Positions 29,717 to 33,725 of a DNA stretch of 33,725 nucleotides are shown here, piece after piece. Below the pieces are notes generated by a model that was not told the origin of the DNA, made no database searches, and saw nothing but the letters and a program-made list of their open reading frames with translations. The stretch is from contig DUBN01000017.1 in NCBI GenBank assembly GCA_012960315.1, forward strand, positions 1-33,725. Direction: 5' to 3'. Source of the stretch: Acidimicrobiia bacterium. Its GTDB lineage: Bacteria; Actinomycetota; Acidimicrobiia; Acidimicrobiales; Poriferisodalaceae. Position 1 is the first letter of the stretch. Each line of letters opens with the position of its first letter. Both the position numbers and the translations under genes were made by a program.

Positions 29717-31900
29717 ATGTCCGTGTTTCTGTATCAGCTAGGTCGCGCCTGTGTTCACCACAGATGGAGAACCATCGGTGCATGGCTCATCACTTCAATT
29801 GTTTTGATCGGACTCAACCAAGCGGTGGGTGGGGAGTTGACCAACGGCTTTGTGGTTCCGGACTTCGACAGTCAACACGCATACGACCTTCTGGGCGATC
29901 GCTTCCCCGCCGAAGGCGGCATCAACGCTCAAGTCGTAGTAGAAGCGCCAACTGGATCACTGCTGAGTGACCCTGTCCAACGAAAAGTGATCGAAGGAAT
30001 CTCCGCTGAGCTTCGAACAATTGAAGGCGTAGAAAGAGTTGTACCTCCGATCCCCGGGCAAACAATTAGCCCGTCGGGAACTATCGGGTTGTTTCGTGTT
30101 GTCTACAACCCTGATCTCATGCCGTCCCTCTCAATGTTGGAGGATCTTGAAGAAGCCGGACACAACGCTGTAGGGACCGGCGGTGCGTTAAGAATCGAAT
30201 TCGGAGGAGATCTTTACAACTCAGTCGATCAACCCGAGACCGGCGTCGGAGAAATCTTGGGTTTGGTCTCAGCAGTCTTCGTGCTTTTGCTGGCCTTCGG
30301 AAGCATCGTCGCTATGGGCTTACCAATTGGGTTGGCTCTGTTCGGTTTAGCCCTAGGAATCGGCGGAATCATTGGGCTTGTAGCCATCGCGATGAATGTG
30401 CCCGAATGGACTCCAAATATGGCGTCAATGATCGGTCTCGGTGTCGGCATCGACTACGCCCTGTTTATCGTCACTAGGTTCCGCGAAGGCTTAGCCGATG
30501 GTCTCACCGTTGAAGACGCCGCAGGTCGAGCAAACGCGACAGCGGGCCTTTCAGTAATTTTCGCCGGAGGAACCGTAGTTATAGCGATTTTGGGTCTCGC
30601 TACAGCGGGTCTGCCATTTATGACCGCCGCTGCCGTCGCCGTTTCGATCGTGGTCGCATTAATGGTCATTGCCTCAATCACGATTTTGCCCGCACTGTTG
30701 GGATGGGCGGGACATCGAGTGAATCCCAAAAAAATGCGGACCAACCAGGAAATTCGGCCTTCTAGCGGACCGGGAGGATGGCAGCGCTGGGGTGATCATG
30801 TCGCCAAACACGCGTGGCCCTACATGTTGTCGACCTTGGTGCTGCTGCTTGCCTTAACCGCCCCAGTCTTAGATCTGAAGCTTGGCTTTCCCGACCAGGG
30901 CAACGCCCCTGAAGAACGAACCTCCCGGCAAGCGTATGACCTACTCACGGACGGTTTCGGTCCCGGCTTCAGCGGACCTCTCTTGGTGGCACTGGACACC
31001 GCTACCGTCAGCGACCAAGAGCTGAAGGTACTGGCAACAACTTTACGAAACGATCCGGGCGTGGCGTTCGTTCAGCCACCCGAACGAAGCCCAGTCGGCG
31101 AAGCAGCAATCATTCTTATTTTCCCGACTACTGCACCCCAGGATCCCGAAACGGTGGCTTTGTTGAATCGGATCCGCGGCCCCATCTTTTCCTCGGTTTT
31201 AAGCAATCAGGGCAGAGCCCATGTAGGTGGAGCAACAGCGTCATTCGCTGACGTGTCAGAGCGGGTGCAAAACCGGTTACCGATTTTCATTGCCGGAGTG
31301 ATCGGTCTCAGTTTCATTCTGCTGATGCTGGTATTTCGCTCAATACTTGTCCCTATCAAAGCTGCTGTCTTGAACTTGTTGTCGATTGGTGCTGCCTATG
31401 GGGTGCTGGTGATGGTGTTCCAGTGGGGTTGGGGGCTCGGACTCATCGGCTTACAAGAGTCGGTCCCAATCGTTTCTTTCATTCCTATGTTTATGTTCGC
31501 TGTACTTTTCGGTCTCTCTATGGACTACGAAGTTTTCCTTTTGAGTCGGGTGAAAGAGGAGTACTTACTCAGTGGCGATAACTCTCAGAGCGTGATTTTC
31601 GGGATCTCCAATACAGCAAGGGTCATTACTTCTGCCGCGTTGATCATGATCTCAGTGTTTTTGGGTTTCGTTACCAACCCTGATCCGATCCTCAAGATGA
31701 TGGGATTGGGATTAGCAACTGCGATCTTCGTTGACGCCACAATCGTTCGGGTCGTACTAGTCCCGGCTTCGATGAAGCTCATGGGCGACGCGAACTGGTG
31801 GTTCCCTAAGTGGCTTGAGTGGCTTCCTCGCGTAGATATTGAAGGCGAAGCGGCGCTTCCACCTCGCGAACTGCAATCAGTTAGCCAATCCACTGATTGA
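29717..31900 (+). CDS. MMPL family RND-type transporter
   Basis: Inner-membrane exporter with two homologous halves, 727 residues. Each half has one leading membrane helix (RTIGAWLITSIVLIGLNQAV; YMLSTLVLLLALTAPVLDL), an outside porter domain, then a block of five helices. The Asp/Tyr relay is visible in GLGVGIDYALFIVTRFREGL in the first half and FGLSMDYEVFLLSRVKEEYL in the second. Substrate is unknown; relatives carry lipids or drugs. A GTG at 29684 would add eleven residues after AGAAGG; the ATG at 29717 fits the family better, because MSVFLYQLGRACVHHRW is the usual N-terminus. The last 24 bases overlap the convergent CPBP gene. Confidence 0.94.
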   Translation: MSVFLYQLGRACVHHRWRTIGAWLITSIVLIGLNQAVGGELTNGFVVPDFDSQHAYDLLGDRFPAEGGINAQVVVEAPTGSLLSDPVQRKVIEGISAELRTIEGVERVVPPIPGQTISPSGTIGLFRVVYNPDLMPSLSMLEDLEEAGHNAVGTGGALRIEFGGDLYNSVDQPETGVGEILGLVSAVFVLLLAFGSIVAMGLPIGLALFGLALGIGGIIGLVAIAMNVPEWTPNMASMIGLGVGIDYALFIVTRFREGLADGLTVEDAAGRANATAGLSVIFAGGTVVIAILGLATAGLPFMTAAAVAVSIVVALMVIASITILPALLGWAGHRVNPKKMRTNQEIRPSSGPGGWQRWGDHVAKHAWPYMLSTLVLLLALTAPVLDLKLGFPDQGNAPEERTSRQAYDLLTDGFGPGFSGPLLVALDTATVSDQELKVLATTLRNDPGVAFVQPPERSPVGEAAIILIFPTTAPQDPETVALLNRIRGPIFSSVLSNQGRAHVGGATASFADVSERVQNRLPIFIAGVIGLSFILLMLVFRSILVPIKAAVLNLLSIGAAYGVLVMVFQWGWGLGLIGLQESVPIVSFIPMFMFAVLFGLSMDYEVFLLSRVKEEYLLSGDNSQSVIFGISNTARVITSAALIMISVFLGFVTNPDPILKMMGLGLATAIFVDATIVRVVLVPASMKLMGDANWWFPKWLEWLPRVDIEGEAALPPRELQSVSQSTD

Positions 31901-32569
31901 CCATATGAGACCGTTGTGGGTCGCGTGGAGTACAAGACCGGCCCACCAGCCGTAACGCACCCTCGCGATAGTGAACATCAACCCCAACCAGATTTGTGGG
32001 CTCACAACTAGCGGTGCGACGAGAACCGCGTAGATCGACCATTCAACGTCAAAATTTACGATGTGAATCAAACCAAAAACCAGTGTCGCTGACCACACGG
32101 GGATTCTCGCGTTGATGGTCCACTTGTCTTGAATGTTTTGTCGAAGTTGAGGGCGGGTTCCAACGCTGCCTACTGCAACGGCCAACATCAAGATGACCCA
32201 AAACGATGCGCTCCCAGCGCCGGTGAAAAACAGGGCGCCCGTTGCTAATGAAAGCGCTATGAGGCCCGGACGGAATCGTCTTTGCAGGGGAAGCCGGTAG
32301 ATCGTTTCTTCAAGCACAGGTGCGAGCAATACCACCAAGATGAACTGTTGAGCGAGTGACCACTGTTCGAGTTCTGACTCCAGGACACTTTCGTACCCGG
32401 CAGCCTCTGAGAGAGCCCCAAAGATTTGCCATGCGAGTAGCGAACCTAAGAACCCGATTCCTAAAAGCTTGGCTAGTCCTCGTAGTAGACGTCGAGGTTC
32501 AGGCATCGCAGCCCAGTCAGGAGCGGCGATGAATCCTGGACCGATGGAAGGGCGGTCAGTATGGGGCAC
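31877..32569 (-). CDS. CPBP family intramembrane metalloprotease
   Basis: A multi-pass membrane protein (about 230 residues with the start used here) of the Rce1/Abi family. Motif 1 is EETIYR (EExxxR), motif 2 is FGLIH (FxxxH), and motif 3 is HATHN (HxxxN), in the expected order across the last 150 residues. The hydrophobic helices include LLGIGFLGSLLAWQIFGAL and FILVVLLAPVL. The start is unclear: ATG at 32506, GTG at 32569, or an ATG further up that overlaps the HTH gene by more than 80 bases. Roles in this family include prenyl-protein processing and bacteriocin immunity; none can be chosen here. Confidence 0.86.
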   Translation of the reverse strand: MPHTDRPSIGPGFIAAPDWAAMPEPRRLLRGLAKLLGIGFLGSLLAWQIFGALSEAAGYESVLESELEQWSLAQQFILVVLLAPVLEETIYRLPLQRRFRPGLIALSLATGALFFTGAGSASFWVILMLAVAVGSVGTRPQLRQNIQDKWTINARIPVWSATLVFGLIHIVNFDVEWSIYAVLVAPLVVSPQIWLGLMFTIARVRYGWWAGLVLHATHNGLIWSISGLAN

Positions 32570-32798
32570 TGTCAGAAGGTTTCGTTGAATCCGGGTAGAG
32601 GTGCTTGAGAGAACCGGGCTGAATCCGACTTGCATCAATAAAGGAATCCACGTCGGAGGTCTTGAGTCGGATCACGCGACCCAACCGATATGCGGGTAAG
32701 CGACCTTCGTCGATGAATCGGTACAGAGTGCGGGTGGTGATGCCGATCTGTTTCGCCGCTTCCTTGCTTGATAACCAAAGGTCTGCCGGGTCGGCCAT
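32556..32798 (-). CDS. Excisionase-type helix-turn-helix DNA-binding protein
   Basis: An 80-residue protein with one MerR/Xis-like winged HTH: LSSKEAAKQIGITTRTLYRFIDEGRLPAYRLGRVIRLKTSDVDSF (residues 9-53), followed by a polar tail ending SDSAPY. Such stand-alone domains are common chromosomal regulators in actinobacteria, and no integrase or att-like repeat accompanies it here, so a phage role is not supported. No strong ribosome binding site precedes the ATG. It overlaps the CPBP gene start and is probably co-transcribed with it. Confidence 0.85.
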   Translation of the reverse strand: MADPADLWLSSKEAAKQIGITTRTLYRFIDEGRLPAYRLGRVIRLKTSDVDSFIDASRIQPGSLKHLYPDSTKPSDSAPY

Positions 32799-33028
32799 TT
32801 CACAAGGTTAGGCGCAGTGGCAGCGTTGTCCCCCGTCACATAACAGTCCTGGGCGAGGTTATGAGTCGGTCGCTGACTAGTTACCGGATCGAGCTTCGGT
32901 CTTCTCATTACGATCGTCGCGTTGTAGGGCTTGGTGGTCTGAGTCGTCGGTCGTTTCAACCTCTCGATTGCGATGACGGGTCGTCTCGAGATACTCGGGG
33001 ATTTCGCGTTTGTCAGGGCACCGACCAG

Positions 33029-33725
33029 CTAGTTCCCCCCTCCTCCTGGGTTGAAGAAGCTTGGTCGAGTCGTCGCATCACTCGTCTTTGTCGAGGTAGC
33101 TAGGTTCGCAAAGAACGCGCCTTTAGGTTGCTCCTCGTTTACTGAACTTGGAGCCGTTGGAGCTTTGAAGAAAGCACTTGGCTGAGTTTCTTCTTCAGTC
33201 GCCGCTGCGCTTTCGGTTGGGTTGAAGAAACTCGGTGGCGGCGGTTCCTCGCTTTGCTCAGCTGGTTGAGGCTGAGAATCTCCGGTTGGCTCGGATTCTT
33301 GAGTATCAGTCAGTTTCTCGGCTCCAGCGAAGAAGAAGTCTTTCGCTCCACCCGCCATCGGGGCACCCTCATCACGGTCACCTTCACCACCGTCAGGGCG
33401 CGCCATAAAGAAGTTGTTCAAACCACCTCCAGGACGATCCTCGCCCTCCTCGTCGAATGACATGAAACCGCGACGGGCATTGTCATCTTGACCCGTCGGA
33501 GGCCGCACCCCTTCATCGTCTTCGAACCCAAACGCCTTAAACATCTCACCGCGATCAGCCGGTCCGTCGTCACCCATCGGCGGCAACCACGCATCATCAT
33601 CGGGATCCATTGGAGACGCAGGTCCATCTGGACTATCCGAGCCAAAGACCCCACCACGGAATCCGGCAAACAGCTCCTTATCAGGCAACGACCCATTCCC
33701 CGACTTGGCCATAGGGCCAGCAGCG
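33029..33725 (-). CDS. Acidic disordered protein with periodic FF repeats (may extend past window)
   Basis: From the ATG at 33712 this gives 227 residues, but the frame stays open to the window edge, so the gene may start further out. The composition is Asp/Glu/Gly/Pro-rich with almost no hydrophobic core, apart from Phe. Phe doublets recur at 101, 126-128, 162, 181, 200 and 219. The last four are spaced exactly 19 residues apart and sit in SFFNP, AFFKAP, AFFANL and SFFNP. Earlier single-Phe variants are ELFAGF, MFKAFGF and GFMSF. I do not recognise a family. The pattern suggests repeated short linear motifs on an unfolded chain, for docking a partner or for condensate formation (inference). 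The gene ends with GGGG before TAG. Confidence 0.7.
   Translation of the reverse strand, partial: AAGPMAKSGNGSLPDKELFAGFRGGVFGSDSPDGPASPMDPDDDAWLPPMGDDGPADRGEMFKAFGFEDDEGVRPPTGQDDNARRGFMSFDEEGEDRPGGGLNNFFMARPDGGEGDRDEGAPMAGGAKDFFFAGAEKLTDTQESEPTGDSQPQPAEQSEEPPPPSFFNPTESAAATEEETQPSAFFKAPTAPSSVNEEQPKGAFFANLATSTKTSDATTRPSFFNPGGGGN
33154..33252 (-). repeat. Degenerate 57-bp tandem coding repeat (19-aa FF units)
   Basis: Within the C-terminal part of the acidic protein the motif [SA]FF repeats with an exact period of 19 residues (57 bp) over three full units plus a partial fourth. The first two units lie about here, and the remainder runs to the stop. DNA identity between units is low, so this is protein-level periodicity kept by selection rather than a young duplication. 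Confidence 0.5.

Follow-up and report, generated by a model that had tools for sequence, protein, structure and literature searches.

The 3' end of a gene for a probably exported, acidic protein with conserved phenylalanine doublets in an Acidimicrobiales genome

The locus at the contig end

The window analysed here is the entire contig C17 of genome G000, 33725 bases in length. Next to its last base lies the 3' part of a gene for an acidic protein with paired phenylalanines, here called the FF protein, followed by two neighbouring genes. The features, all on the minus strand, are the following.

31877..32638, minus: CAAX/Rce1-like membrane protein (PF02517, E 1.9e-7), a neighbour used as synteny anchor, outside the system
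32556..32798, minus: HTH_17 protein (PF12728, E 3.5e-13), the downstream neighbour, common to relatives, bordering the slot and outside the system
32886..33011, minus: relic of the C-terminus, located past the stop in another frame (profile match, E 3.3e-4, and shifted-frame translation)
33029..33724, minus: FF-protein gene, 3' part, 231 codons and a stop (open reading frame, orthologs, dN/dS against the G005 ortholog)
33053..33058, minus: tail FF doublet 4, reading FL in G009 (alignment, spacing, codon columns)
33110..33115, minus: tail FF doublet 3, reading FL in G009 (alignment, spacing, codon columns)
33167..33172, minus: tail FF doublet 2 (alignment, spacing, codon columns)
33224..33229, minus: tail FF doublet 1 (alignment, spacing, codon columns)
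33329..33337, minus: FFF triplet (GAK[DAE]FFF motif), final piece of the repeat unit (alignment including distant homologs)
33407..33412, minus: FF doublet of the repeat-unit part (LN[NQ]FFM motif; ortholog alignment, codon columns)

The frame is open on its 5' side at the contig end. A first-pass annotation of this DNA had counted the chain from an ATG at 33712; this codon was dropped as gene start since the frame reaches the contig end and the relatives continue upstream. By comparison with these relatives, the gene extends beyond the frame seen here, which covers its 3' end only. With the ATG kept for numbering alone, Phe blocks stand at residues 101, 126-128, 162, 181, 200 and 219, exactly where that annotation had placed them, and the four doublets of the tail are spaced 19, 19 and 19 residues. 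Shuffles that preserve composition average 1.67 such blocks, and 13 of 20000 reach the six observed. The chain is acidic, as had also been stated, with 44 Asp and Glu against 17 Lys and Arg among 231 residues, and the content of acidic residues amounts to 19-24% across the eight sequences measured. No DNA repeat of at least 30 nt is present in the window fragment, so the linkers between the blocks are indeed unlike one another at the DNA level.

Phenylalanines are kept while spacers drift

A protein search of the window's own genome and 60 relatives matched the FF protein in six of the 61 genomes, own included, which bears out the expectation that orthologs exist in related genomes; the identical six were recovered by a profile search of 39 family members. 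The homologs of G009 and G033 escaped these searches and were found later via synteny, and a missing match is for this reason weak evidence of absence. Of 11 pattern matches in IMG/VR, none was confirmed as a relative.

The window protein was aligned with the orthologs of G002, G005, G018, G019 and G029. Every Phe cell of the doublets and triplet is kept in these six rows (78/78). In the codon alignment all 13 Phe columns are invariant, seven of them with TTT/TTC variation, including six of the eight tail columns. Over residues 133-228, the eight Phe columns are all invariant against 12 of 88 others (Fisher p 9.5e-7, with columns treated as independent), and among the tail columns lying outside positions -1 to +2 of a Phe, which represent the linkers, the proportion falls to 4 of 74. 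The prediction that FF would be conserved as the linkers drift was thus borne out by the ortholog alignment. More distant homologs depart from this picture at individual sites. The FFF triplet is retained in all eight rows, the six close sequences together with G033 and G009; G033 carries VF in place of the LNxFF doublet, while in G009 two of the tail sites read FL and 24 residues separate the two doublets that remain in the tail. Across the sequences compared, FF persists in all six close ones and is for the most part retained in the two distant ones; the spacers are not conserved.

The possibility of functionless, low-complexity drift, the period being what remains of a short repeat of ancient origin, can be weighed at this point. 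The composition is simple and the 19-residue tail unit could stem from a duplicated short unit, but not one Phe cell has changed while more than half of the Phe codon columns vary synonymously, and dN/dS lies below 1 against the G005 ortholog (0.095/0.263 over residues 8-133 and 0.161/0.628 over residues 134-228; in the four other ortholog pairs, dS of the tail is either at least about 1.2 or impossible to compute). We find this explanation scarcely credible.

The period itself is less strict than the first-pass annotation had proposed. The window, G005 and G018 have the exact spacing of 19 residues throughout, but the whole set does not: G002 shows 19, 20 and 19, G019 18, 18 and 19, and G029 19, 18 and 19, so that 14 of the 18 intervals in the six sequences equal 19 and the remainder 18 or 20. 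In the more distant G033, tail spacing is 14, 16 and 16. Small indels shift a spacing that is neither random nor exact, and selection on an exact 19-residue geometry was not upheld.

Repeat units and a gene probably divided between contigs

The CAAX-like neighbour was matched in 24 of the 61 genomes and served to fetch the corresponding stretches of relatives. Acidic units precede the tail, recurring every 399-423 nt in G002, G005 and G029. These units comprise about 133-141 residues, and about 157 in G009, where the spacing is 468-474 nt and the copies are 88-91% identical. Copies are identical over 81/81 nt in G002 (locus L004), 99% identical over 175 nt in G029 (locus L006) and 92% over 71 nt in G005. 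Their Phe motifs include GFMxFD, LNxFFMA and GAKxFFF, and the repeat unit also holds clusters of Asp.

Such Asp-rich segments could, together with the acidic content of all eight measured sequences, describe an ion or nutrient sponge that binds Ca2+ or other cations, its Phe residues packing only upon binding. Tail conservation is however centred on Phe rather than on Asp or Glu, and no calcium-repeat (RTX) family figures among the Pfam matches; we regard a sponge as distinctly unlikely.

Seven of the eight FF-tail loci (G000, G002, G005, G018, G019, G029 and G033) are open at a contig end. G009 alone has the gene intact: its frame of 663 codons (635 or 647 if counted from either of the two likeliest ATGs) combines FF motifs with two repeat units and a start resembling a signal peptide. 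The gene order there is hemN, a lipoprotein gene, the FF-protein gene and the CAAX-like gene; we take the first to be hemN, such labels (lepA and similar ones too) resting on the look of the sequence and not on a family search. A search for hemN matched 31 of the 39 family genomes. The region behind it was read for 14 of the 31 matches, plus G009, G010 and G023 and, in part, two genomes of genus g4. The 5' half was found there in five genomes (G000:C59, G005:C14, G001:C20, G002:C32 and G033:C15), each locus presenting hemN, the lipoprotein gene and the N-terminal frame of the FF protein, which runs off the contig within a Pro-, Ala- or Gly-rich stretch. Both halves of the gene were thus seen, on different contigs, in G000, G005, G002 and G033, and the near-identical repeats probably caused these contig breaks. 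Of the 5' end that the first-pass annotation left to be completed, the N-terminal half was recovered on G000:C59; the intact gene of G009, and the like division of the gene in G005, G002 and G033, suggest that C59 and C17 hold one gene.

The opposite end of the protein has also changed. G002, G018, G019 and G029 extend about 50 residues beyond the last FFNPGG, and this C-terminal end, in frame in the four orthologs, is broken by stops in G005 and persists in the window as the relic behind the stop. The stop after GGGGN is common to G000 and G005, which suggests one event before their divergence.

Putative export and a lipoprotein neighbour

At all six loci with a start, the N-terminus of the FF protein opens with basic residues, passes through a hydrophobic core to an AxA-like site and continues into sequence rich in Pro, Ala or Gly. 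The best 12-residue mean hydropathy of the six is 2.15-2.68 in our own pattern scan, which also gave spurious matches to a Pro/Ala stretch in G001 and to another frame in G033. With Sec-signal-like N-termini in six of six, export is likelier than a cytosolic role: as far as these sequences tell, the FF protein is probably exported and would reside at the surface or outside the cell.

The gene in front of it appears specific to the lineage.

L061 228-971, in G000:C59, minus: lipoprotein gene, lineage-specific, its end overlapping the FF frame (no family match above cut-off)

Its products, of 244-248 amino acids and 63-92% identical to the G000 copy, all carry, behind an N-terminal hydrophobic segment, a lipobox with Cys at position 25 (6/6), a pattern typical of bacterial lipoproteins, and two further conserved Cys near the C-terminus. 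Pfam and NCBIfam gave the lipoprotein weak matches only, none above cut-off, and these were set aside; the strongest, invert_tail, scored 22.5 bits where 37 are required. Matches to solved structures, one weak match each for the lipoprotein profile (E 0.19) and for P0001 (E 2.7), were dropped. A candidate start of the FF frame lies within the last lipoprotein codons in 6/6 loci, ATG in five and GTG in G005, and an additional candidate ATG overlaps the lipoprotein stop in G000 and G005.

These observations bear on the multivalent cargo adaptor or condensate former that had been put forward in the first-pass annotation, taken here as an intracellular scaffold working in the cytosol in the manner of CsoS2 and FG-repeat proteins. 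Repeated hydrophobic motifs on an acidic chain with no predicted fold, conserved as the linkers drift, are what such a scaffold would present, but it fits poorly with six signal-peptide-like N-termini out of six and with a lipoprotein gene overlapping the frame; we hold it to be highly unlikely. The lipoprotein is probably a partner of the putatively exported FF protein.

Distribution of the gene pair

The nearest genes to the FF protein are hemN, the lipoprotein gene, HTH_17, the CAAX-like gene and MMPL. Among loci read behind hemN in genera g1, g5, g6 and g7, lipoprotein and FF genes are both present in six genomes (G000, G001, G002, G005, G009 and G033) and both absent in three (G010, G023 and G035), where HTH_17 stands directly behind hemN; in G022, G025 and G031 the contig is cut too early for the pair to be read. 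Readable loci hold either both genes or neither, six against three, with G029 conflicting: there hemN is followed by HTH_17 on C31, yet an FF tail lies on C14 with a second HTH_17 copy behind it. The two HTH_17 copies of G029 (L065 on C31 and L006 on C14) share an identical stretch of 83 nt, so the bin may mix strains; a duplicated slot is the alternative. In genus g4, genomes G008 and G024 (L054 and L055) have several other frames between hemN and the CAAX-like gene, one of them CpaB-like by eye, and the slot is accordingly used differently there.

The lipoprotein occurs in eight of the 39 family genomes, the G031 and G022 copies being fragments at contig ends. The G022 match covers profile positions 1-48 only and was kept on account of its place directly behind hemN at the contig end. 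In a sample of the order (397 genomes, drawn evenly), three full matches were obtained, all in the window's own family and own genome included, along with two to the signal-peptide end only; the latter (G157 and G393, profile positions 6-63 and 4-65) were discounted. The FF-protein profile A4 matched five of the 397 genomes, all in the own family and all five being rows of A4, and in a sample of the phylum it matched one of 396, the window's own. With samples this thin and contigs breaking within the gene, the lineage restriction of both genes is provisional.

Presence or absence in one slot, near-identical units in L004 and L006 and a C-terminal end that two genomes have lost are features expected of a variable exported coat, whose fast-changing repeat number would serve as shield or decoy against phages or grazers. 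That FF never varies among the six close sequences suggests a defined binding task and not a mere shield, and we consider such a coat rather unlikely.

Fold and family assignment

AlphaFold2 run on the window protein with two relatives returned a mean pLDDT of 50.6 and a pTM of 0.10, and the model, built on this shallow three-row alignment, contains no helix of four residues and no strand of three. At that depth the prediction hints at a disordered FF protein, and the first-pass view of an unfolded chain is probably right. That view had also known of no named family, and the window protein indeed has no Pfam or NCBIfam match. The homolog of the intact locus differs.

L053 1473-3461, minus: G009 homolog, with ALTTAQ repeats C-terminal and a Gly-X-Y run near the N-terminus

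Its C-terminus matches ALTTAQ repeats (PF20080) in four stretches (E 1.4e-11; 44.3 bits, cut-off 26.4). PF20080 was not found in the window protein, and four orthologs carry a different C-terminal end. A Gly-X-Y run of 19 triplets occurs only in G009; runs of at most 5 appear in C-terminal parts of G033, G005 and G002, and the window protein and the N-terminal pieces from G000, G005, G001, G002 and G033 have none that reaches 5. No Pfam collagen family matched the proteins P0001, P0002, L050, L064 and L006. A collagen stalk was rejected as a family feature, the long run being limited to G009. Inspection by eye noticed no wall anchor or wall-sorting motif. Among the matches listed, the open-licence literature offered nothing on the FF protein and no paper on the ALTTAQ repeat.

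A proposed surface scaffold

Our judgement tilts towards a longer gene whose 3' end lies in the window and whose product is an acidic, disordered repeat protein that is exported, with FF/FFF stickers and a lipoprotein partner. As read from the sequences, the protein has a Sec-signal-like N-terminus, a Pro/Gly-rich stretch, acidic Phe-motif repeat units and a tail with four FF sites. The FF and FFF blocks may act as short hydrophobic binding sites, or stickers, on a flexible acidic chain, and could build an extracellular multivalent scaffold or adhesive coat, with the lipoprotein as a membrane-anchored partner that would hold the FF protein. More tentatively, and with a low probability in our eyes, the two genes might constitute a module, so far of one Acidimicrobiales family, in which the FF polymer docks on the lipoprotein or on itself and forms a sticker-and-spacer coat.

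Comparison with known systems

Exported bacterial repeat and collagen-like surface proteins combine a signal peptide, Pro/Gly-rich or Gly-X-Y sequence, near-identical repeats and patchy presence. The FF protein is similar in its signal-like start, its Pro/Gly-rich stretch, its near-identical repeats and its patchy presence. It is unlike collagen-like proteins in lacking a Pfam collagen match, in showing a long Gly-X-Y run in G009 only and in having FF as the conserved element. Likeness to ALTTAQ-repeat proteins (PF20080) is confined to the G009 C-terminus, the window protein being without match.

FG-repeat proteins are best known inside eukaryotic cells. They resemble the FF protein by Phe-based motifs on disordered hydrophilic spacers (PMC8311347). 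The FF protein departs from them by its FF/FFF motif, its acidic spacers, its probable export and its bacterial origin. CsoS2, the alpha-carboxysome scaffold, is likewise a long, disordered bacterial protein in which assembly is driven by conserved motifs that recur along the chain; it acts within the cell, together with shell proteins and Rubisco (PMC11365436, PMC10484944, PMC11481516). The FF protein is unlike CsoS2 in its signal-peptide-like N-termini, its lipoprotein neighbour and its want of a family match; no carboxysome genes are found among its nearest genes. P0001 has no match in the Pfam and NCBIfam libraries, which presumably hold a CsoS2 model. CsoS2 and FG-repeat chains would be nearest in mechanism, and the FF protein is filed under neither.

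Genes of this sort get missed, as near-identical repeats probably split them in assemblies and leave their ends on two contigs. Sticker-and-spacer proteins are studied mostly inside cells. A lineage-specific and probably exported one, with its motifs kept and its spacers drifting, would be a bacterial case beyond the cytosol.
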